Made by a program: the position numbers and the translations under genes. Source: Actinomycetota bacterium (GTDB taxonomy: Bacteria; Actinomycetota; Coriobacteriia; Coriobacteriales; RUG844). From it: 14,800 nucleotides of DNA. The first letter of the stretch is position 1, and each line of letters begins with the position of its first letter. Location of the stretch: the NCBI GenBank assembly GCA_013335845.1, contig JAAXUU010000007.1, positions 1 to 14,800 of the forward strand, given 5' to 3'. Below are positions 2,712 through 14,722 of this stretch, piece after piece. The notes beneath the pieces are model-generated. The model had not been told where the DNA came from. It searched no databases and saw only the letters and a program-made list of their open reading frames with translations.

Positions 2712-5258
2712 ATGCTAATGGTGATACAAACGTTGAAGAAATCGAAGCACGTTGTCAAGCGCATATTGTTTCTCTGCATAGTCATCCACGTCGTTGTCGA
2801 CACGGCGTATCTCTATTATTCATGGAACAACTACAGAGCCCAGGCTAAGAACGATGCAATCGGACTTGCCCAGTCCGCAGCAGCTTTGATCGACCCGAAT
2901 CAGATACTTACATTAAAGGGGACACCCGAGGATATCGAATCTTCTGAATACCAAATGATCAAAAATGGTTTGATGGATTTCAAAACATATAACGATAAGG
3001 TGAGCTTCGCCTATATCACAATGTTAAAAGACGGTAAGATTTACTTTCTGGTAGACTCCGAATCACCTTTATCTGAGGATTACTCACCTCCTGGCCAAGA
3101 ATATTCAGAAGCAGGCGAACAAGATAAGCTGCCGTTTTTCAATGGTGAGGCCCTACTCACAGCACCGGCTGCCGACAGATGGGGTACTTGGGTTAGCGCT
3201 TTGGTGCCGATCAGGGACGCTGAAACCGGAAAGGTCATCGCAGTATTCGGAATCGATTACCCCGAGGAGTATTGGAACGCCGGACTTTTCCGCCAAGTGA
3301 TGCAGGACGCAACAGTTGTCGTCAGTATCCTTCTCCTTCTAATCGGGCTTTATCGAATTTATAGAGATAATATCAACATCGGGGCTATCGGTGCGAAGTT
3401 AGCTGAAAGCGAAACGTTGTTCAAGACGGTATTCGAGCAGGCGCCCGTAGGGGTCGCCATCGTCACCAACTACTTCTTTTTCTCGGAGGTCAATTCCGAG
3501 TTTGCAAGAATACTTGGCAGATCGAAAGAGGATATAACATCATTGAACTGGGTTGACATCACGCATCCGGATGATCTCGAAATGGACATGGAACAATATG
3601 AGCGCTTCAAGGCTGGCGAGATAAGCGGATATTCCTTGGAAAAACGTTATATCAGACCAGACGGAACAGATGCCTGGATCTACATGGTCATCGCCGGAAT
3701 CCACATCGTCGATGAAACCTCCGGATATAAAAGACATATCGCCATCATCCAGGATATCAACGAACGCAAAATTGCCGAGGAGAATCTCCGTGAAAGCGAA
3801 CGAAGCAAAAGCATGTTGCTTTCGAATCTACCCGGAATGGCATATCGATGCGAATACGATAGTGACTGGACGATGCAGTTCTTATCGGAAGGGTGCCATG
3901 AATTGACCGGATACGAACCGGAGAGTCTCATCGACAACAATGAGCTGCCATTCGAAGATCTGATCGCACCGGAATACAGGGACATCCTCTGGAATGAATG
4001 GACGCGCACACTCAAACTACAAGCCCCTTTCAGGCATGAGTACGAAATCATCACCAAGGAAAACGAACGCAAATGGGTGCTCGAAATAGGGCAGGGAGTC
4101 TTCGGGAGCGAAGGAGCCGTCGAGGCGCTTGAAGGTATCGTCATCGATATCACGGAATCCAAAAAGCGGCTCGATGAAATCAGATACATAAGTGAGCATG
4201 ACTACACCACCGGACTCTATAACCGCAAACAATATGAGACCGAGAAGAGGCACCTCGACAACGATAGATGCGCTTCCGCTTCTATAATCAAAGCAGATAT
4301 CAATGGTGTCCGTTTGATAAATGATGCGTTCGGGCATGCCGAGGGCGATCGTTTGATCGTCGAGACCGCAAGAATCATGCAAAGCTGTTGCCGAGAAGGC
4401 GATATTCTCGCGCGAACCGGTGGCGATGACTTCAGCATGCTTCTGCCCAATACCGGTCATGACGACGCATACGAGCTGGTAAATGCCATACTGGCGGCAT
4501 GCGAAAATTACAACCTAGCGTTATCGGATGACGAGCGACCGATCAATCTATCCATCGGCTTCGGCACTACGGATACCGAGAAGCCCACCTTGGATGATGC
4601 CGAAAAAGAAGCCGAAGAGTATCTGCGCACACGCAAGCTTTTCGAACGGGAGAGTTACCATAGCGCATTGCTCTCTTCTGTTATGGCGACGATGTACGCC
4701 CGAAGCCAGGAAACCGAAGAGCACGCCATCCGAATCGCAGAGCTCTGCAAGATCGCCGGCAAGAAAATGAACCTTACCCAACAAGATTTGGATGAATTGC
4801 AGCTTTTCTCTATGCTCCACGATGTCGGCAAAGTCGGAATCGACGATCACATATTGAACAAACCCGGGAGGCTCACAGACGAAGAATGGGTCGTTATGAA
4901 GGCGCACCCGGAAATCGGGTATCGGATCGCCATGTCCGTTCCCGAGTTGAAGAACGTAGCTGAATATATCTTGACGCACCATGAGCGCTGGGACGGGTGC
5001 GGATACCCGCAGGGCATGCGCGGAGAAGAGATCCCCTTGTTGTCGAGAATACTTGCCGTCGCGGATTCCTACGATGCCATGACGGAAGATCGCGTGTATA
5101 GAAAGGCCTTGTCGAGAGCCGCCGCCATCGAGGAAATCGAGAAGAACGCGGGCCTGCAATTCGACCCCGCAATCGTGCGGATATTCATTGAAATCATGCA
5201 GGAGCCGATGCAGGATACGGAGCCGTCAGGTTTCAATCGAGCATCGTCGGTAGCGTGA
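2712..5258 (+). CDS. Membrane sensor with two PAS domains, degenerate GGDEF and HD-GYP (c-di-GMP phosphodiesterase)
   Basis: An 848-residue signalling protein that most likely hydrolyses c-di-GMP in response to an extracytoplasmic cue. A membrane segment (about 17-37) and a second (about 200-217) bracket a periplasm-facing sensor region of about 160 residues that looks Cache-like. Two PAS domains follow (about 232-355 and 362-485), then a GGDEF domain (about 490-645) and an HD-GYP domain (about 660-830). The GGDEF signature reads GGDDF (570-574). The inhibitory RxxD site (R561-D564) is kept at the canonical 5-residue spacing, suggesting c-di-GMP binding rather than robust synthesis. The HD-GYP core is complete: H671, H703-D704 (HDVGKVGI), HHER (756-759), GYP (764-766). 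The ribosome binding site before 2712 is weak, and ATG at 2718 is an alternative start. It converges with the methyltransferase gene 16 bases away. Confidence 0.9.
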   Translation: MLMVIQTLKKSKHVVKRILFLCIVIHVVVDTAYLYYSWNNYRAQAKNDAIGLAQSAAALIDPNQILTLKGTPEDIESSEYQMIKNGLMDFKTYNDKVSFAYITMLKDGKIYFLVDSESPLSEDYSPPGQEYSEAGEQDKLPFFNGEALLTAPAADRWGTWVSALVPIRDAETGKVIAVFGIDYPEEYWNAGLFRQVMQDATVVVSILLLLIGLYRIYRDNINIGAIGAKLAESETLFKTVFEQAPVGVAIVTNYFFFSEVNSEFARILGRSKEDITSLNWVDITHPDDLEMDMEQYERFKAGEISGYSLEKRYIRPDGTDAWIYMVIAGIHIVDETSGYKRHIAIIQDINERKIAEENLRESERSKSMLLSNLPGMAYRCEYDSDWTMQFLSEGCHELTGYEPESLIDNNELPFEDLIAPEYRDILWNEWTRTLKLQAPFRHEYEIITKENERKWVLEIGQGVFGSEGAVEALEGIVIDITESKKRLDEIRYISEHDYTTGLYNRKQYETEKRHLDNDRCASASIIKADINGVRLINDAFGHAEGDRLIVETARIMQSCCREGDILARTGGDDFSMLLPNTGHDDAYELVNAILAACENYNLALSDDERPINLSIGFGTTDTEKPTLDDAEKEAEEYLRTRKLFERESYHSALLSSVMATMYARSQETEEHAIRIAELCKIAGKKMNLTQQDLDELQLFSMLHDVGKVGIDDHILNKPGRLTDEEWVVMKAHPEIGYRIAMSVPELKNVAEYILTHHERWDGCGYPQGMRGEEIPLLSRILAVADSYDAMTEDRVYRKALSRAAAIEEIEKNAGLQFDPAIVRIFIEIMQEPMQDTEPSGFNRASSVA

Positions 5259-5286
5259 AAGGGCAACGCTAAACTCAGCGAACCTT
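5259..5286. terminator. Weak hairpin between convergent genes
   Basis: AAGG (5259-5262) and CGCT (5267-5270) can pair with AGCG (5277-5280) and CCTT (5283-5286) around the loop AAACTC, with an internal loop between the two short helices. It spans the 16-base gap between the sensor and methyltransferase stop codons and runs into the methyltransferase end. No T-tract is seen. Confidence 0.22.
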
Positions 5287-6051
5287 AAGGATCAGATAGG
5301 TATTCAGGTTGCCGGTTCTACCATCTGCTTCGAATCGTGAGACCTCGCTTGCCAGTTCCGCAACCGATGCAACCAACACGTCGATCTCGGGTTCCGAGAA
5401 GTTGTGACAATAGCGGTACTCCCCCGGCATATTCTTCCAGCCCAACAGGTAATCGCCGCTATCCAATTCCGGAAGACCCAGTTCTTCCAGAGCGCGTGCG
5501 TTGGTGACCTGTGCCTTCTCGGCCATTTCCGCATTCTTACAAAACTGCCAAAACGACACCATGACGTATCCGCCGGAACGCGTTTGCCTGATAAGGCTTC
5601 GCAATACCTCTTCGCGATATTCTTCGAGCGGAACGTGATGCATGAATCCGAACGAAACAGACAGGTCGCAAACCGGCGCCTCGAGCTTATCGTTGATGCA
5701 GAGGCCATCTCGCAACACAGCCAAGATGTCGAGGGTCTGATAGTTCACGGAAAGTGTATTGGGCACAAGGCTATCGCAGTTATCGACAGCATAGAAAACG
5801 ATACGAGCCGGCTCCAACGCAGACGCAAGAAACGCTTCGAACCTGAGATTGCCACATGCAAGGTCGAAAACCGAAAGGGTCGGGCTGTCGCTTACGCGTG
5901 TGGGGTCGAGAAGGCAGTCGCCCCTGACTATATCGAGGCATCGTTCCCATCCGGACCAAGGTGACTTACGTGTTGCCGAAAACGAATCGGCATGGTTTCG
6001 ATAGAAGTCGTTGTTCAGCTTGCAGAGTGTTTCAACTGTTTCAGCATTCAT
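5275..6051 (-). CDS. Trm9/ALKBH8-like SAM-dependent methyltransferase (candidate tRNA wobble-uridine methyltransferase)
   Basis: A 258-residue class I methyltransferase. The SAM-binding motif I is VFDLACGNLRF (61-71), and the active-site region has FGFMHHVP with His138-His139. Three segments resemble the eukaryotic Trm9/ALKBH8 family that methylates cm5U34 to mcm5U34. These are the opening NNDFYRNHADSFSATRKSPW (13-32), like the YN..A..FS.TR..PW start of Trm9; the HH after motif IV; and the late segment GEYRYCHNFSEPEI (210-223), like the KYRYYHLYREGEL of Trm9. The divergent neighbour is Elp3, the enzyme that makes the cm5U precursor, which strongly supports this role. I compared motifs from memory, so a different small-molecule or RNA methyltransferase remains possible. 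No good ribosome binding site precedes the ATG at 6051. Sampled GC (about 57% in one line) is higher than in elp3. Confidence 0.75.
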   Translation of the reverse strand: MNAETVETLCKLNNDFYRNHADSFSATRKSPWSGWERCLDIVRGDCLLDPTRVSDSPTLSVFDLACGNLRFEAFLASALEPARIVFYAVDNCDSLVPNTLSVNYQTLDILAVLRDGLCINDKLEAPVCDLSVSFGFMHHVPLEEYREEVLRSLIRQTRSGGYVMVSFWQFCKNAEMAEKAQVTNARALEELGLPELDSGDYLLGWKNMPGEYRYCHNFSEPEIDVLVASVAELASEVSRFEADGRTGNLNTYLILKVR

Positions 6052-6111
6052 CGCGTGTCAATTCTGTATTAGTAAGGAGTTCCTGATGTCTTGTAGTATA
6101 GAATACGCTTT
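6052..6111. promoter_or_regulatory. Divergent intergenic region of the methyltransferase and elp3
   Basis: These 60 bases must hold the start signals for both genes. On the plus strand TAGAAT (6099-6104) has the TANNNT form of an actinobacterial -10 element. It would put the transcript start at about 6111-6112, exactly at the elp3 ATG, so elp3 could be leaderless. No clear -35 accompanies it. A strong AAGGAG (6074-6079) is present but serves a different frame (see the 16-codon open frame at 6086). An in-frame TAG at 6094 blocks any elp3 start further upstream. Confidence 0.4.
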
Positions 6112-6136
6112 ATGGAAACGATTCTGCTGGAAATAA
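6086..6136 (+). CDS. Possible 16-residue leader peptide overlapping the elp3 start
   Basis: ATG at 6086 lies 6 bases after AAGGAG, the best ribosome binding site in the region, and opens a frame that reads MSCSIEYALWKRFCWK and ends at TAA 6134-6136. It runs across the assigned elp3 start (6112) in a different frame and stops 5 bases before a second in-frame elp3 ATG (6142). That arrangement could couple translation of the two. Its codons include ATA, GAA, TTA, CGA and two AAA, several of which are read by tRNAs with wobble uridine. This could be chance. Confidence 0.3.
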   Translation: MSCSIEYALWKRFCWK

Positions 6137-7947
6137 TCAACATGCTTAAAGAAGCGAACAACACCTGTGACGTGGATGGCGCGGGCAGGATCGACGACAG
6201 GCTTCTTGAGAAACTCCTCCGCAAACACAATAGAAATCTCACCCACAACGCGCAGCATCACTCCAAGAAAAAACTTATGCCTTTCTATCTTAAAGTGAAG
6301 GAGTCGGATCCTTTGCGCTGGGCCGGTTGGGGCATCGATCAAGCGCTTGAAGAGCAGTTGCTTCGGATACTGCAGATCAAACCGAGACGTACCGCTTCCG
6401 GAGTGGCAACCATAACCGTTCTCACAAAACCTTGGAAGTGCTCAAGTAATTGCCTGTATTGCCCCAATGACTTGACCATGCCGAAAAGCTATTTGAGCGA
6501 TGAACCCGCTTGCCAAAGAGCCGAGCGGAACTACTTCGACCCTTACCTGCAAGTAGCATCGCGACTGCGTGCCTTAACACAGATGGGGCACGTCACCGAT
6601 AAAGTCGAGTTGATCATCCTCGGTGGAACGTGGAGCGACTATCCGGCAGAGTACCAGATCTGGTTCGTGTCCGAGCTATTCAGGGCGCTCAATGAAGGAA
6701 ACGAAGCGGAACATACCTGCGCCAAGAGACGGGCGTTCTACAAGAAAAAGGGACTGAGTAATCAGAAAGAAGAGTTGGCGGAGTTCGTTCGGGAACAGCA
6801 GCAACTGGTGAATAATGGCTCCCTTACGTATAACCAAGCGTGGTCTCGTCTCTATGAAGATAACGATGTTTGGAGGCGCATCTCCGCCAACCAAGTATCC
6901 ACATTCACTGAGCTGAAAGCGCAGCACACGATCAATGAGCATAGTCATCATAGAGTTGTCGGATTGGTTATCGAAACGCGTCCTGATGCAATCACCTGCG
7001 ACAGCCTGAAGCTACTCAGGCAGCTTGGCTGCACCAAAATCCAGATGGGCATTCAAAGCCTTAATCCCTCTATCCTCAAGCTGAATCACCGCAACATATC
7101 CATTGATAAGATCCAGGAGGCTTTTTCGCTCCTAAGGATCTTCGGTTTCAAAATACATGCACATTTTATGATGAACCTTTTCGGGTCTTCCTGCAGCGAA
7201 GACAAGCGCGACTACAGGCGCCTCGTAACGGAAAAGCCATACCTACCCGACGAAGTGAAGCTCTACCCCTGCGTTCTTGTGGGTGGTACAAAACTATGTG
7301 AGCACTTTGCGGATACTACTTGGCAGCCTTATAGCGAAGAGGATCTGATCGATGTTCTGGTAACGGACACGCTTATAACACCGTCTTTTATCAGAATATC
7401 GCGCATGATCAGGGATATCTCCGCTCACGATATCGTCGCAGGAAACAAAAAGGTCAACCTTCGGCAATTGGTCGAGCGCAAGATCGACCAAGCCGGTGAA
7501 AACGTATCTGAGATTCGCTACCGAGAAATAAGTACGCTTGATGCCGATGTGCAAAACCTCACACTTGAGACCGTTCATTACGAAACCACGGTAACCGATG
7601 AATACTTTTTGCAGTGGGTTACCCCCGAAAACAAAATCGCAGGTTTCTTGAGGCTGTCATTGCCCCATGCCGATTACGTATGCCGATATGAATCGCTGCT
7701 GCCCGTTGCGCCCTTCGAAGCGATGATTAGAGAAGTGCATGTGTACGGCAAAGTCGCCGGGCTGCACGAAACCGGAAAGGGTGCTCAGCACCTTGGACTG
7801 GGAAAGCAGCTTATCAAAGAGGCTTGCGCGATTGCGAAAGACCAAAGCTACAGGAAGATCAATGTTATCAGTTCGGTTGGCACGCGGGAGTACTACCGAA
7901 ACCTTGGATTTATCGACACCGAGCTGTACCAGCAGATGACACTCTAG
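6112..7947 (+). CDS. elp3: Elp3: tRNA uridine(34) radical SAM/acetyltransferase
   Basis: A 611-residue Elp3 homologue, the catalytic subunit of Elongator, which uses SAM and acetyl-CoA to build the carboxymethyl group on C5 of wobble uridine 34. The approach segment KPRRTASGVATITVLTKPWK (90-109) leads into cluster cysteines C110, C114 and C117 in the standard radical SAM spacing CX3CX2C. Further family blocks are YFDPYLQVASRLRALTQMGH (141-160), LGGT (170-173), GLVIETRPDAI (284-294), MGIQSL (312-317) and LYPCVLVGGTKL (384-395). The GNAT half follows: REVHVYG (540-546), the acetyl-CoA loop QHLGLGKQL (559-567) and ISSVGTREYYRNLGF (586-600). It is longer than yeast Elp3 (557), mainly through a charged insertion at about 200-262. 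The start is uncertain: ATG 6112 has no ribosome binding site but a possible leaderless promoter, and ATG 6142 is the alternative. Three sampled lines gave 50, 45 and 40% GC, below the respiratory genes. Confidence 0.94.
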   Translation: METILLEIINMLKEANNTCDVDGAGRIDDRLLEKLLRKHNRNLTHNAQHHSKKKLMPFYLKVKESDPLRWAGWGIDQALEEQLLRILQIKPRRTASGVATITVLTKPWKCSSNCLYCPNDLTMPKSYLSDEPACQRAERNYFDPYLQVASRLRALTQMGHVTDKVELIILGGTWSDYPAEYQIWFVSELFRALNEGNEAEHTCAKRRAFYKKKGLSNQKEELAEFVREQQQLVNNGSLTYNQAWSRLYEDNDVWRRISANQVSTFTELKAQHTINEHSHHRVVGLVIETRPDAITCDSLKLLRQLGCTKIQMGIQSLNPSILKLNHRNISIDKIQEAFSLLRIFGFKIHAHFMMNLFGSSCSEDKRDYRRLVTEKPYLPDEVKLYPCVLVGGTKLCEHFADTTWQPYSEEDLIDVLVTDTLITPSFIRISRMIRDISAHDIVAGNKKVNLRQLVERKIDQAGENVSEIRYREISTLDADVQNLTLETVHYETTVTDEYFLQWVTPENKIAGFLRLSLPHADYVCRYESLLPVAPFEAMIREVHVYGKVAGLHETGKGAQHLGLGKQLIKEACAIAKDQSYRKINVISSVGTREYYRNLGFIDTELYQQMTL

Positions 7948-8093: not shown

Positions 8094-8525
8094 TCAATCA
8101 ACATTTGAAATATTGTCCAATTCTTCACCCAGATCGAGCATATCTGCCTTCAATTCCATGACCTTATTCTCGATGGTACGCGCGCACTTGATATATTCAT
8201 CGTGAGATTTACCCGTTGGATCCTCCAAGCCCCAGTCCGTATGATAAGGAGCGTACAAGGTTGGACACGTTACGCCGCATCCCATAGTCACAACTATATC
8301 CACGTCCGGTAGCTCGGACACATCTTTAGGCCGTTGAGTTGCATTCATATCGATTCCGTACAGCTCGCGGATAGTCGCAACCGCTTCCTGGTTTATCGAC
8401 TCGGCAACCTCGGTACCCGCCGAGTACGGCTCGAAGATATCGGATGCGAAGAGCCTCGTGATGGCTTCGGCCATCTGTGAACGACAGGAGTTGTGTACGC
8501 AAATAAAAGCAATCTTATACTTCAT
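8094..8525 (-). CDS. arsC: ArsC-type arsenate reductase (low-molecular-weight phosphatase fold)
   Basis: A 143-residue protein of the low-molecular-weight tyrosine phosphatase/ArsC family, which reduces arsenate to arsenite. Numbering from the chosen start, the P-loop is CVHNSCR (C9 to R15) followed by SQMAEA. Resolving-type cysteines lie in VTMGCGVTCP (C83 and C87), and the catalytic aspartate is in WGLEDPTG (Asp102). The CX3C spacing of the second pair differs from the longer spacing of the Staphylococcus enzyme and fits the MGCG...CP subgroup. An ATG three codons upstream (8534) touches the AGGAG directly, so the ATG at 8525, 9 bases from AGGAG (8535-8539), is the better start. No arsR, acr3 or arsB lies next to it, so the gene is an orphan here. 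A protein phosphatase role is less likely because of the extra cysteine pair. Confidence 0.82.
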   Translation of the reverse strand: MKYKIAFICVHNSCRSQMAEAITRLFASDIFEPYSAGTEVAESINQEAVATIRELYGIDMNATQRPKDVSELPDVDIVVTMGCGVTCPTLYAPYHTDWGLEDPTGKSHDEYIKCARTIENKVMELKADMLDLGEELDNISNVD

Positions 8526-8595
8526 CTTACTCATCTCCTAAAATATCGAATCTTCCAACCGTTCTGAGAATTTCGCAGAATGTTAGCGTGCGAAT

Positions 8596-11315: not shown

Positions 11316-11777
11316 TTACTTTTTTATCGAGGCCCCATTATCGTCTAGCACGTCGACAAGTTCCAACCAGTATTTTAGATTCTTCCCTGCAAGCAGGTGA
11401 TTGAAATCGATAGTCACGGTATTTTCCGTCGCTTCGATGCATTTTACCGGAACCGGCTTATGTGTCACAGGATGCTCCCATGCGAAGATGACGCCGACTT
11501 CCAGCTTATCGCCGTTCTTGATGAACGAACGGGTATAACGCTGCACACCCTCCGGATCGTGGTTCCCATACGCTTGGTCGCATGGAATGACCACAGTGCG
11601 CTTTTCGCCGATCTCCATATCATAGAAGGCTTCTTCGATTCCCTTGGGAACCTGGCCGCCACCTATGATGATGCCGATAGGATCACCCTTGGAATAATCC
11701 TCGAGTATCTCCTCCCCCTCAGCACCCCCACGATATCGAACAAGCGCGTATTTACCGGAATATTCTTTGTGCATCAT
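11316..11777 (-). CDS. FKBP-type peptidyl-prolyl isomerase, SlyD-like
   Basis: A 153-residue FKBP-fold prolyl cis-trans isomerase and chaperone. It shows IGGGQVPKGIEEAFYDMEIG (38-57), the AYG turn (69-71), an inserted flap region (about 72-115) and the closing DFNHLLAGKNL (124-134), which matches the NH.LAG.NL block of SlyD. It lacks the His/Cys-rich metal-binding tail of E. coli SlyD. The frame is open back to 11861, but GAGGTGA 7 bases before the ATG at 11777 marks the real start, and the extra 28 codons would run through a terminator-like hairpin. It is followed by the cysteine-rich gene and preceded by the molybdoenzyme operon. A role in folding or metal insertion for these redox proteins is possible but unproven. 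Confidence 0.88.
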   Translation of the reverse strand: MMHKEYSGKYALVRYRGGAEGEEILEDYSKGDPIGIIIGGGQVPKGIEEAFYDMEIGEKRTVVIPCDQAYGNHDPEGVQRYTRSFIKNGDKLEVGVIFAWEHPVTHKPVPVKCIEATENTVTIDFNHLLAGKNLKYWLELVDVLDDNGASIKK

Positions 11778-11827
11778 TGCAACGTCACCTCTACTTGGAT
11801 GTATAGCTTTCATGGCGGGTCTAAGAG

Positions 11828-11863
11828 CAGTGCCACTCCACTTTTGACGGCGGAGTGGCACTG
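11828..11863 (-). terminator. Hairpin after the molybdoenzyme operon
   Basis: A perfect 12-base stem, CAGTGCCACTCC (11828-11839) with GGAGTGGCACTG (11852-11863), around a 12-base loop. It lies 14 bases after the stop codon of the ferredoxin subunit and before the SlyD-like start. The T-tract on the minus strand is poor (CTCTTAG), so it may attenuate rather than fully stop transcription. Confidence 0.5.
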
Positions 11864-11876
11864 ATTACTTGGAAAC

Positions 11877-12368
11877 TTAATCTTTGAGACCGGTTTCGGT
11901 ACGACTGTCACTTCTCTGAGAGCTTGTCGAAAAGTTCTCGTTCGTGGCAACCTCGACGGCTGCAGCCTTGTGACGACCCTCTTTGAACTTGTTCTTGGGA
12001 ACGAACTCGCCCTTAGCCTCGAAAGGCTTGTACTGTGGAACGAAAAGTACCTGCTTGGTCTTCTCGGCCAACTTGGGAGCAAGTTCGGCTATGGTGCCAT
12101 ACTGCATGACGTTCGCCAAGCAGTGGTGGACACAAACCGGTTCACGTCCGACTGCGGCACGGTCTGTGCAGAGGTCGCAAAGATCTGTCGGTACCGGAAT
12201 CTTGTTCCAGTTGAAGATTTCAGGCTCCATTTCCCATGGGCCATCGTCATGGACTCGGATACCCCACTTACCAACCGGATAATTGTGCTCTTCCTTGCAA
12301 GCAACCTCGCAGGACTGGCAACCGGTGCAGTATTCGTAGTCTATAAGAAGTCCGTAAGTGTTTTCCAT
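11877..12368 (-). CDS. 4Fe-4S dicluster ferredoxin subunit of the molybdoenzyme
   Basis: A 163-residue electron-transfer subunit. The first cysteine group is C14, C17, C20, C24 (CTGCQSC plus EVAC) and the second is C64, C67, C79, C83. That is enough for two [4Fe-4S] clusters rather than the four of DmsB, and the C-terminal half expected of a four-cluster subunit is absent. The start at 12368 overlaps the stop codon of the catalytic gene as TAATG, so translation is coupled, and GAGAGG lies 7 bases before it. The frame is open further upstream (to 12458), but that part lies inside the catalytic gene. There is no signal peptide, so the complex should be cytoplasmic. No NrfD/DmsC membrane anchor follows. 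Confidence 0.88.
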   Translation of the reverse strand: MENTYGLLIDYEYCTGCQSCEVACKEEHNYPVGKWGIRVHDDGPWEMEPEIFNWNKIPVPTDLCDLCTDRAAVGREPVCVHHCLANVMQYGTIAELAPKLAEKTKQVLFVPQYKPFEAKGEFVPKNKFKEGRHKAAAVEVATNENFSTSSQRSDSRTETGLKD

Positions 12369-14722
12369 TACTGGTCCTCTCTCTTGAATTTGGTCCAAAC
12401 TTCCTGCATATCGGTGTCGTAGCTTTCCTTTATCGGCTTGATGTTGGCGATCATGCACTTGAAGGGAGCGCCGAAACCAAGCTTGCCGAAGTGGAAGTTG
12501 GGAACAAGATTGTTGACATTCGAGCGGAAGGTGCCGTAGAGGTTGGGCTCATCCGGATCATCCTCAGGGAACCACCAACCGTGCTGACAGTGCAGGGTGT
12601 TCTCATCGACGATTGCAGAAACCTTCGCCTTCATCTTGCAGGAACCGAACTGATTCCAGACCTCACACCACTGCCCATCGGCGATACCGAGTTCCGCTGC
12701 ACGCTTAGGATTGATCTCTACCAATGGATCGGGGTTGAGTTCACGGCAGAATGGGATCTGACGGTTCTCGGAGTGGAAGAACGCGAACGTCCTAGCACCG
12801 GTCGTCAAGACGAATGGATAATCCTTCATGAGTTCAGGAGTCTGAACCGGGCTGTATGCCGGCTCCTCGTAGTAAGGCAGAGGATCCTCGCCGAACTGCT
12901 GGAAGATCGTCGAGTAAAGCTCGACGCGCCCACTGGGGGTGTTGAAACCAAGCTGCCCGTCAGGACGCAGGCGACCTGTCTCGTACTTGTAGTAATCGCA
13001 ACCGCTGAGAACATAGACTTCTTTGGCAACATCCTTGAAGTGATGCTTCTTGAAGAGGCGGAGATGATCGATGAAGTCATAGACGTCATTGTAATCTTTC
13101 CACATGTGCGGGTTGAGGCGCTTGCCGACTTCGAGACAGGTCTCCATGTCGGTCTTGCACTCTCCGACGCTCAACGCCTTGTTCATGAAACCGGTTCCTA
13201 CGGGAGTCGCACCATAGTGGGCGAACTCGACGCCGTCTTCCTCGGCAGATGTTGCCAAAGGCAGGAAGATATCGCATGTAGCCTGTGCGGAAGGAGTCAT
13301 GAAGCAGTCGACGGTGAAGCAGAAGTCAAGAGTCTTGACCATCGCATCGTGCCAGCGCTTCGGCTCTGCACTTGTGCAGGACATGAGGTTGTTTCCGGCG
13401 TAGAATCCCATCTTGATCGGATAGGGTTCACCGGTCTCCATCGCCCTCAAGGTCAGGTCGGCATGTGCATTCAAAATCGTATTGGCATAGGCGGGATACT
13501 CGTGAAGACCGATCATCTTGGCAATAAGCTCCTTGCCCAAGCCCTCTTCGAAACCGAAGCCGGACTCGTTCTGGCCGGCGCTGGCATCGCCGAGGATCTG
13601 ACCACCGGGGATGTCGAGGTTTCCGGTGATAGCCATCAGGCAGATAACGCTGTGGCTGAGCTGCATTCCGTTCGCCTTCTGGTCGAAAGCAAGACCCCAT
13701 TGGATGGATGCAGGCGAAGCGTTTGCATACATACGAGCAGCGTTCTTGATCTTGTCGACATCGATGCCGCAGATTTCCGCTGCTTTCTCGGCGGGCATGG
13801 TCTTGACACGTTCAGCCAACTCTTCGAAGCCGTAGCACCAGTACTCGACGAAATCATGGTCGTAGAGATCCTCTTCGATGATGACGTTGAGCATGGCCAT
13901 GGCAAGGGCGGTGTCGGTACCGGGACGCAGGCGCAAGTGATAGTCGGCACGGGTTGAGAGCCAGTTCGCACGTGGGTCGACGACGATCAAACGTGAGCCC
14001 CTGCGCATGAGGTCGCACAGAGCGTGACCGAAGAAACCATCGGGGTTGGAAGCCAGAGGAGCCTTACCCCAAACGACGATGCACTCCGGCACTTCGAATT
14101 TAGGATCGTCGAAACGACCTTCGAGACCACCGGCATAGTCGATTTCAGGATAGGGGCTACCGATGTTGTAGGCAGCAGCTGCCATACGGGGGACGTAGCA
14201 CGCATAACCGGATTGAGTGTAGCAGTAGTTGGGTGAGCACAGCATATAGGTGTGCCAAGGACCGAGTGTACCACCTTCACGACCGGTACCTGCGAAGCAT
14301 ACGATGCTCTCGCGGCCAAACTCGGCAGTGATCTTGCGGTAGTTCTCCTCGATGATATCGATGGCCTCTTCCCAATCGCAACGCTCCCACTTGTCATTCT
14401 GACCGCGGAATTCTTTTGCGCGCTTCATGGGATACGTGATACGGCTTGGGTTGTAGATGTAATCCTTGAGGGTCAGACACCTTACGCAGAGACGACCCTG
14501 TGTGATCGGGTGGTTTTCGTCACCTTCGACTTTTACAAGTTTCCCCTCATCATCGACGTAGAGCTTCAGACCGCAACCTACCGGGTGACACCCCGGAGGA
14601 GACCAGGGCGAGGTGCGTGTCACAGTAAGACCGTCCTCTTCCCACCTCCATGGTTTTCCCAGGTCATTCACGTCTGTTAACGTTGGAAGTGGCACTGCTG
14701 GTACAGCCTTCATTTCTCCCAT
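12368..14722 (-). CDS. Molybdopterin-dependent oxidoreductase catalytic subunit, acetylene-hydratase-like clade
   Basis: A 784-residue catalytic subunit of the DMSO reductase superfamily binding a bis-molybdopterin cofactor. Several blocks recall acetylene hydratase: PGTDTALAMAMLNVIIEEDL (267-286), then YGFEELAERV, ASPASI, and late PSGRVELYS and DPLPYYEEP. The same broad clade includes gut actinobacterial catechol dehydroxylases, but the substrate here is unknown. The likely metal ligand is Cys175 in SPNYCYTQSGYACYVPR (163-179). The N-terminal cluster site is unusual: C45 and C50 (CX4C), then C79 and C82 in GRLCVRC, instead of CX2CX3C plus one Cys. There is no Tat signal, so it is cytoplasmic. 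ATG 14722 is supported by AGGGG 6 bases upstream. Nothing further upstream is visible except 78 bases of leader. Confidence 0.9.
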   Translation of the reverse strand: MGEMKAVPAVPLPTLTDVNDLGKPWRWEEDGLTVTRTSPWSPPGCHPVGCGLKLYVDDEGKLVKVEGDENHPITQGRLCVRCLTLKDYIYNPSRITYPMKRAKEFRGQNDKWERCDWEEAIDIIEENYRKITAEFGRESIVCFAGTGREGGTLGPWHTYMLCSPNYCYTQSGYACYVPRMAAAAYNIGSPYPEIDYAGGLEGRFDDPKFEVPECIVVWGKAPLASNPDGFFGHALCDLMRRGSRLIVVDPRANWLSTRADYHLRLRPGTDTALAMAMLNVIIEEDLYDHDFVEYWCYGFEELAERVKTMPAEKAAEICGIDVDKIKNAARMYANASPASIQWGLAFDQKANGMQLSHSVICLMAITGNLDIPGGQILGDASAGQNESGFGFEEGLGKELIAKMIGLHEYPAYANTILNAHADLTLRAMETGEPYPIKMGFYAGNNLMSCTSAEPKRWHDAMVKTLDFCFTVDCFMTPSAQATCDIFLPLATSAEEDGVEFAHYGATPVGTGFMNKALSVGECKTDMETCLEVGKRLNPHMWKDYNDVYDFIDHLRLFKKHHFKDVAKEVYVLSGCDYYKYETGRLRPDGQLGFNTPSGRVELYSTIFQQFGEDPLPYYEEPAYSPVQTPELMKDYPFVLTTGARTFAFFHSENRQIPFCRELNPDPLVEINPKRAAELGIADGQWCEVWNQFGSCKMKAKVSAIVDENTLHCQHGWWFPEDDPDEPNLYGTFRSNVNNLVPNFHFGKLGFGAPFKCMIANIKPIKESYDTDMQEVWTKFKREDQ

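Follow-up and report, generated by a model that had tools for sequence, protein, structure and literature searches.

5-Carboxymethyluridine (cm5U) at the wobble position of tRNA (U34) is made by Elp3 in archaea, and its methylation to 5-methoxycarbonylmethyluridine (mcm5U) by Trm9-Trm112 is described for both archaea and eukaryotes (PMC7694415, section 7.7). In eukaryotes, Elp3 is the catalytic subunit of Elongator (Elp1-6) and acts together with Trm9-Trm112 or ALKBH8-TRMT112, and in yeast the formation of mcm5U and its 2-thiolated form, mcm5(s2)U, involves at least 15 proteins (PMC5372719, section 8). Archaeal Elp3 stands alone, as in Haloferax volcanii, where mcm5U is documented (PMC7663514), and in Sulfolobus solfataricus, in which the Elp3 and Trm9 genes are clustered (PMC2584109, PMC5372719). 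The 2020 review PMC7694415 assigns cm5U, mcm5U and the amide 5-carbamoylmethyluridine (ncm5U) to archaea and eukaryotes and not to bacteria, which are also excluded for mcm5s2U. Most bacteria use MnmE/MnmG according to another 2020 review (PMC7663514), which names Dehalococcoides as the bacterial clade with Elp3 and says that direct evidence on its products there is lacking, the bacteria being hard to grow; numerous bacteria are reported to have Elp3 alone (PMC13315578). Here we describe a stretch of 14,800 nucleotides from an Actinomycetota bacterium of the class Coriobacteriia (positions 1 to 14,800 of contig JAAXUU010000007.1, assembly GCA_013335845.1; hereafter the window), in which an elp3 gene lies head to head with the gene of a Trm9-like methyltransferase.

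We consider it likely that these two genes constitute a minimal wobble-uridine pathway. Elp3 alone, using S-adenosylmethionine (SAM), its [4Fe-4S] cluster and acetyl-CoA, would place a carboxymethyl group onto C5 of U34 to give cm5U; the divergent Trm9-like enzyme would then methylate the carboxylate from SAM, yielding mcm5U34 without a Trm112 partner; and MnmA would introduce the 2-thio group in some tRNAs, giving mcm5s2U. The pair would thus take the place of MnmE/MnmG, absent from the Elp3 genomes sampled. The proposal builds on the two genes and their homologies, the retention of most catalytic residues, a strict co-occurrence, the absence of MnmE/MnmG from the sampled Elp3 genomes and the presence of MnmA, and from these we would predict the two reactions and the order in which they occur, the tRNAs acted upon and the independence of Trm112. 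With somewhat less assurance, we also think it rather probable that bacteria make mcm5U or mcm5s2U34 by means of just two proteins, Elp3 and a Trm9-like enzyme that needs no Trm112, that roughly half of the Coriobacteriia in the sample, named strains of Collinsella and Slackia among them, use these enzymes instead of MnmE/MnmG, and that the pair recurs in other classes. An earlier reading of the window from its sequence alone (the sequence-only reading) had suggested that such a pair may give mcm5U or a related modification; homology, pairing and the MnmE/MnmG-free background speak for it, and cm5U or mcm5U as the product is what we infer. Its statement that both steps are known from eukaryotes was too narrow, given the archaeal Elp3 and Trm9-Trm112 (PMC7694415).

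The window pair has in common with eukaryotic Elongator and Trm9-Trm112 the catalytic subunit Elp3, a Trm9-related methyltransferase and catalytic residues, and differs from them in being bacterial, in having no Trm112 that tracks Elp3 and in the extra helical insertion of its Elp3. It shares the stand-alone Elp3 with the archaeal systems, in which Trm9 is described as acting together with Trm112 (PMC7694415); the window pair, by contrast, belongs to a bacterium, has diverged far and shows strict pairing over its class. DmcElp3 of Dehalococcoides mccartyi is likewise a bacterial stand-alone Elp3, from which the window protein differs by the lack of linker cysteines, by the insertion and by having a Trm9-like partner. 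MnmE/MnmG also decorate C5 of U34, with MnmA adding the 2-thio group, but these enzymes are unrelated, lead to 5-carboxymethylaminomethyluridine or 5-aminomethyluridine (cmnm5U/nm5U) and were not found in the sampled Elp3 genomes. A lone bacterial Elp3 is already known (Dehalococcoides, PMC7663514). The literature searched, namely listed titles and beginnings of abstracts of open-licence PMC papers, without preprints, contained nothing on an Elp3-Trm9 pair in bacteria. What is new is the bacterial Trm9-like partner, the strict pairing and the MnmE/MnmG-free background.

The association of the two genes was surveyed in 148 Coriobacteriia genomes, including the window's own (85.75% complete). 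Strong Elp3 matches, defined as those over 200 bits since weaker ones extend over no more than part of the radical SAM domain, were found in 73 genomes and the methyltransferase in 72; both genes occur in 72 genomes, Elp3 only in one, the methyltransferase only in none, and neither in 75. One genome (G031) is counted among the 72 from partial matches, its stretch containing a run of N. The genome with Elp3 only (G087) has its gene on a contig (C62, locus L064) whose start lies some 1.2 kb upstream of it. By the distance between matched stretches, the 72 pairs comprise 46 that are divergent and less than 1 kb apart, 20 that are divergent at 1-5 kb, two on the same strand within 1 kb, two on different contigs and two far apart. 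In the latter (G118 and G137), 242 and 78 kb separate the genes and the co-occurrence persists, so that it is not a matter of mere linkage. Presence and absence also vary within genera: in genus g12 both genes are found in G035, G059 and G073 and neither in G047, and in genus g24 both in G117 and neither in G103. Of 45 loci taken from other genomes, 44 have the Elp3 gene next to the methyltransferase gene in divergent orientation, which is more than chance would give; in the exception, L025, the contig starts 2.0 kb upstream, at about the position of the Elp3 start in other Collinsella loci. The co-occurrence and adjacency in relatives that the sequence-only reading had put forward as a check were thus both observed. 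Spacing in Collinsella is usually about 2 kb; one locus (L035) has a DUF4097 gene (4124-5020) between the Trm9-like gene and Elp3, and another (L028) a TrmB-type tRNA methyltransferase gene (PF02390; 6980-7828) after the Trm9-like gene. Judging from record titles, Elp3 and its Trm9-like partner are present in named strains of Collinsella, Slackia, Raoultibacter and Gordonibacter, which are culturable.

Taken as a single sequence, the methyltransferase gave only generic, sub-threshold matches in Pfam (Methyltransf_11, 16.7 bits against a cut-off of 21.2), no match in NCBIfam, and among PDB sequences Trm9 at E 0.36 only. Since such scans are uninformative, the label 'Trm9-like' had to be tested with a family profile. 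Searching some 5.8 billion proteins yielded 1623 relatives, and among the 120 of them that were listed at least five (P0006, P0008, P0010, P0095, P0109) are labelled 'tRNA (uracil-5-)-methyltransferase TRM9' by their source, so that automatic annotation pointed to Trm9 already; in a Pfam scan of six relatives, P0109 had no match at E ≤0.01. The family profile (A1), built from 31 sequences (23 proteins chosen from those 120 and eight locus translations), was run against 177,635 PDB sequences and retrieved Yarrowia Trm9 (5cm2_Z) first, at E 4.4e-5 (best stretch 4.3e-4), the next match being at E 0.01. A Trm9 alignment (A2) was made from 24 close relatives of Yarrowia Trm9, taken from 120 listed of 1737 found, whose named members are fungal or called TRM9, the remainder being without a name. 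Comparison of the family profile with A2 by hhalign gave a probability of 98.0 and E 2.2e-13 over 182 columns at 22% identity, with the motifs FSxTRxxPW and RYxH in register. In the reverse direction, the A2 profile matched 52 of 5003 open reading frames (ORFs) from the loci at E ≤0.01 (E-values for that small set), among them six homologues from other classes (described below), the window methyltransferase (E 7.8e-5), others of its family and a single protein that does not belong to the family (L052).

In a joint alignment of 20 sequences (A4: six from Coriobacteriia, five of the six other bacterial homologues described below, and nine Trm9; L059 was omitted as near-identical to L060), in which family and Trm9 are about 20% identical, the invariant columns include R28, W32, D63, C66, G67, N68, D90, H138, R146, G161, W168, D200, W205, R213, Y214, H216 and N250, and E222 is nearly invariant. 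Four of five residues needed in yeast Trm9 (R29, H115, R241 and N271) are kept as R28, H138 or H139, R213 and N250, the yeast numbers being assigned to motifs from the spacing in A2 and from the yeast N-terminus. In yeast Trm9, the mutations R29A, H115A, R241A, Y243A and N271A have strong effects on the affinity for tRNA and on activity (PMC5372719, section 8). These sequence comparisons make the methyltransferase a genuine, if distant, relative of Trm9, in agreement with the Trm9-like look of its two ends noted in the sequence-only reading: A1 finds Trm9 first, hhalign aligns the two families at a probability of 98, and A2 finds the window protein.

The identity of the other gene is clear from its match to TIGR01211 (407.6 bits, curated cut-off 350), from Pfam Radical_SAM, Radical_SAM_C and GNAT matches over their cut-offs, and from PDB chains, which are matched at E 2.1e-82 to 1.1e-68 for solved archaeal and bacterial Elp3 and at E 9.7e-64 to 2.5e-61 for Elp3 of Elongator. 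In an alignment of 26 Elp3 sequences (A3), three of them from outside the Coriobacteriia, the cluster cysteines C110, C114 and C117 are invariant. So are K164, E288, K347, K383, Y385 and Y594, which correspond to K150, E207, K266, K302, Y304 and Y517 of the archaeal MinElp3, and H543, which corresponds to H463, as counted by hand along the alignment of the window Elp3 to PDB 6iaz. MinElp3 mutants at the first six positions lose activity, while H463A retained acetyl-CoA hydrolysis (PMC6367351, PMC13315578). The position of MinElp3 Q461 is occupied by E541, and E386 of DmcElp3 is taken to be the same position. An Elp3 with intact radical SAM and GNAT halves, as first read from the sequence, is thus borne out, the mapped catalytic residues being mostly kept, and the protein is predicted from its sequence to make cm5U34 on tRNA. 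Linker cysteines are absent, the positions of MinElp3 C384 and C389 being V465 and Y470 in the PDB alignment. These cysteines are described as conserved in bacterial and archaeal Elp3 and missing in eukaryotic Elp3 (PMC6367351), and are not common to all Elp3. Within its radical SAM domain the window Elp3 carries some 70 additional residues, an insertion that neither the archaeal Elp3 chain of the PDB alignment nor the three non-Coriobacteriia sequences in A3 possess; its length varies among Coriobacteriia, L019 and L024 having shorter ones. In the AlphaFold2 (AF2) model of Elp3, which has a predicted local distance difference test score (pLDDT) of 89.2 overall, the insertion is predicted to be helical with block means of 89-97.

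The pair is also found beyond the class. In a sample of 246 genomes of the phylum (25 Coriobacteriia and 221 others), strong Elp3 matches occur in 22, of which 16 are Coriobacteriia and six belong to other classes. The six score 594-605 bits against TIGR01211, above the Coriobacteriia kind and about 190 bits above the window Elp3, and the three of them that were aligned in A3 keep the linker cysteines. The A1 profile matches 24 of the 246 genomes at E ≤1e-3; the 21 with E <1e-10 all have Elp3, and the remaining three (G298, G345, G367) are weak matches in genomes without it. With the A2 profile, a Trm9 homologue, clearer than that of the Coriobacteriia, was found in all six Elp3 genomes of other classes at E 1.3e-26 to 1.8e-32 (L058, L059, L060, L065, L066, L067), including that of G179, which the genome search had missed and which was recovered as an ORF. 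It is divergent from Elp3 on one contig in four genomes (G179, G201, G212, G355) and lies on a separate contig in two (G334, G348). A divergent Elp3-Trm9 pair is thus not confined to Coriobacteriia, and in the other classes of Actinomycetota it comes with a different kind of Elp3.

The usual enzymes for U34 were also searched for; where first-look candidates were many, only part of them were scored (e.g. 10 for MnmE and 7 for MnmG). MnmE was over its cut-off in none of the 148 Coriobacteriia genomes and MnmG in a single one without Elp3 (G062). The neighbours of the latter gene (L076, contig C8, 4773-6719) look foreign, and contamination or transfer is a candidate explanation. Across the phylum sample, MnmE was found in 43 and MnmG in 34 of the 246 genomes and neither in any of the 22 Elp3 genomes; each search recovered its enzyme in 9 of 14 control genomes. 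Neither was over its cut-off in the window's genome, where absences alone mean little because the assembly is 85.75% complete; the sampled Elp3 genomes as a whole lack both, so that this check, named in the sequence-only reading, came out in its favour. The thiolase MnmA is present in 147 of the 148 genomes, with 380 bits in the window's own. The main text of PMC10531406 has no passage on MnmE/MnmG in mycobacteria.

As to partner proteins, no other Elongator subunit was seen among the scanned proteins of the window, the genome not having been searched for Elp1, 2 and 4-6. Trm112p (PF03966) was over its cut-off in 29 of the 148 genomes, always in open frames of 141-852 amino acids; the matches fall in 19 of 73 genomes with Elp3 and in 10 of 75 without it, and the window's genome has none. 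In the six Elp3 genomes of other classes, it was over the cut-off in one (a 333-residue frame), and G212 had a sub-threshold match in a 79-residue frame. This distribution and the large frames make a universal Trm112 partner unlikely, and no Trm112-like protein tracks Elp3, a check that the sequence-only reading had also named, although this is a weak test.

Some observations weigh against the proposed two-protein pathway. If a modified U34 read G-ending codons, Elp3 genomes might have lost tRNAs with C34, yet in the one genus pair compared the Elp3 genome G073 (whole, 45 tRNAs) is not poorer in C34 isoacceptors than the Elp3-less G047 (first 1.24 of 1.60 Mb, or 78%; 41 tRNAs). Both carry U34 and C34 tRNAs of Lys, Glu, Gln, Arg (UCU, CCU), Gly and Leu (UAA, CAA), and because C34 tRNAs are kept in both, the modification may tune decoding rather than replace tRNAs. 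Moreover, Y243 of yeast Trm9 is replaced by C215 in A4, and since tRNA affinity and activity are strongly lowered in yeast Y243A (PMC5372719, section 8) the claim of strict Trm9 membership is weakened. Finally, METTL6 tops a structure-only listing for the AF2 model of the methyltransferase (pLDDT 92.1), and Trm9 is not among the 50 matches listed there; in a Foldseek ranking Trm9 comes second. The cysteine at the Y243 position, the distance of the family from Trm9 and the position of cm5U at a branching from which several products are known (PMC7694415) could all fit a partner that acts on the cm5U34 made by Elp3 and leads to another end product, for instance as a step toward the amide ncm5U. 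This is unlikely in our view, because the SAM motif is intact, four of the five mapped Trm9 residues are retained and Trm9 is the top PDB match by sequence profile.

The structural prominence of METTL6 might suggest that the methyltransferase modifies another tRNA position, such as 3-methylcytidine at position 32 (m3C32), or a different RNA, and shares only regulation with Elp3. We regard this as quite improbable and have set the m3C32 reading aside: the A1 profile places Trm9 first and its 12 PDB matches at E ≤1 include no METTL6 chain, the hhalign comparison also points to Trm9, and the C-terminal D-x4-W and RYxH motifs are those of Trm9. In addition, the methyltransferase is found in 72 of 73 Elp3 genomes and in no genome without Elp3, which is what dependence on the Elp3 product would lead one to expect. 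It could also be that the two genes are mere neighbours, shared descent having kept an orphan Elp3 next to an unrelated methyltransferase of small molecules, in line with the generic Pfam matches of the single sequence and with related genomes not being independent. Such an explanation seems very improbable indeed, since co-occurrence holds when the genes are unlinked (G118, G137), both genes switch jointly within genera g12 and g24, and divergent pairing recurs in other classes with a different kind of Elp3; together with homology, the co-occurrence led us to set aside a small-molecule methyltransferase. The two-protein pathway to mcm5U34 thus remains the reading we prefer.

Table 1. Features of the Elp3-Trm9-like locus (positions in the window)
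Feature	Position	Strand	Basis
Trm9-like class I methyltransferase, 258 aa, predicted to convert cm5U34 to mcm5U34	5275..6051	-	A1 and A2 profiles, hhalign, AF2 model
C-terminal motif D200-x4-W205 ... R213-Y-C215-H ... E222	5383..5454	-	in common with Trm9 QDVMVPW ... RYYH ... EL
SAM-binding motif VFDLACGNLR, residues 61-70	5842..5871	-	D63, C66, G67, N68 invariant in A4
N-terminal Trm9 motif, residues 17-35	5947..6003	-	A4; R28 aligned to yeast R29
Divergent intergenic region	6052..6111	none	ORF coordinates
elp3, 611-aa Elp3-family radical SAM/GNAT enzyme, predicted to make cm5U34	6112..7947	+	TIGR01211, Pfam, PDB matches, AF2 model
Fe-S cluster motif C110-x3-C114-x2-C117	6439..6462	+	three Cys invariant in A3
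Insertion of ~70 residues (about 196-268) within radical SAM domain	6697..6915	+	alignment gap, A3, model
Elp3 GNAT (lysine acetyltransferase, KAT) half	7600..7911	+	Pfam Acetyltransf_1 match, residues 497-600

The coordinates of the locus are collected in Table 1. Positions, divergent orientation, the 60-base gap between the two ATGs and the motifs quoted in the sequence-only reading all agree with the ORF coordinates and translations, YRNHADSFSATRKSPW being residues 17-32 and GEYRYCHNFSEPEI residues 210-223 of the methyltransferase. The intergenic region presumably holds both promoters. Before the pair, the window encodes a flavin adenine dinucleotide (FAD)-binding protein with a weak match to a twin-arginine translocation (TAT) signal (584-2386, + strand) and then a large PAS-PAS-GGDEF-HD sensor protein (2712-5258, + strand). 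After it lies a gene on the - strand for a low-molecular-weight phosphatase or arsenate-reductase-like protein (8094-8534), with 67.9 bits far below the curated arsenate reductase cut-off of 215. Genes for an FKBP-type isomerase, a ferredoxin-like protein (read from its cysteines) and a molybdopterin oxidoreductase, the latter under the cut-offs of the 25 listed NCBIfam subfamilies, follow in one direction (11316-14722, - strand).

About half of the sampled Coriobacteriia, without the usual wobble-base enzymes, carry Elp3 and a Trm9-related gene, usually back to back, in what looks like a two-protein version of the pathway known from eukaryotes and archaea. If this is true, two proteins would do what needs at least 15 in yeast for mcm5(s2)U, one of them a Trm9 that may be independent of Trm112, and bacteria would have another route to C5 modification of U34. 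With Elp3 and a dedicated partner present in named strains, the question of the product comes within reach of liquid chromatography-mass spectrometry (LC-MS) of tRNA.

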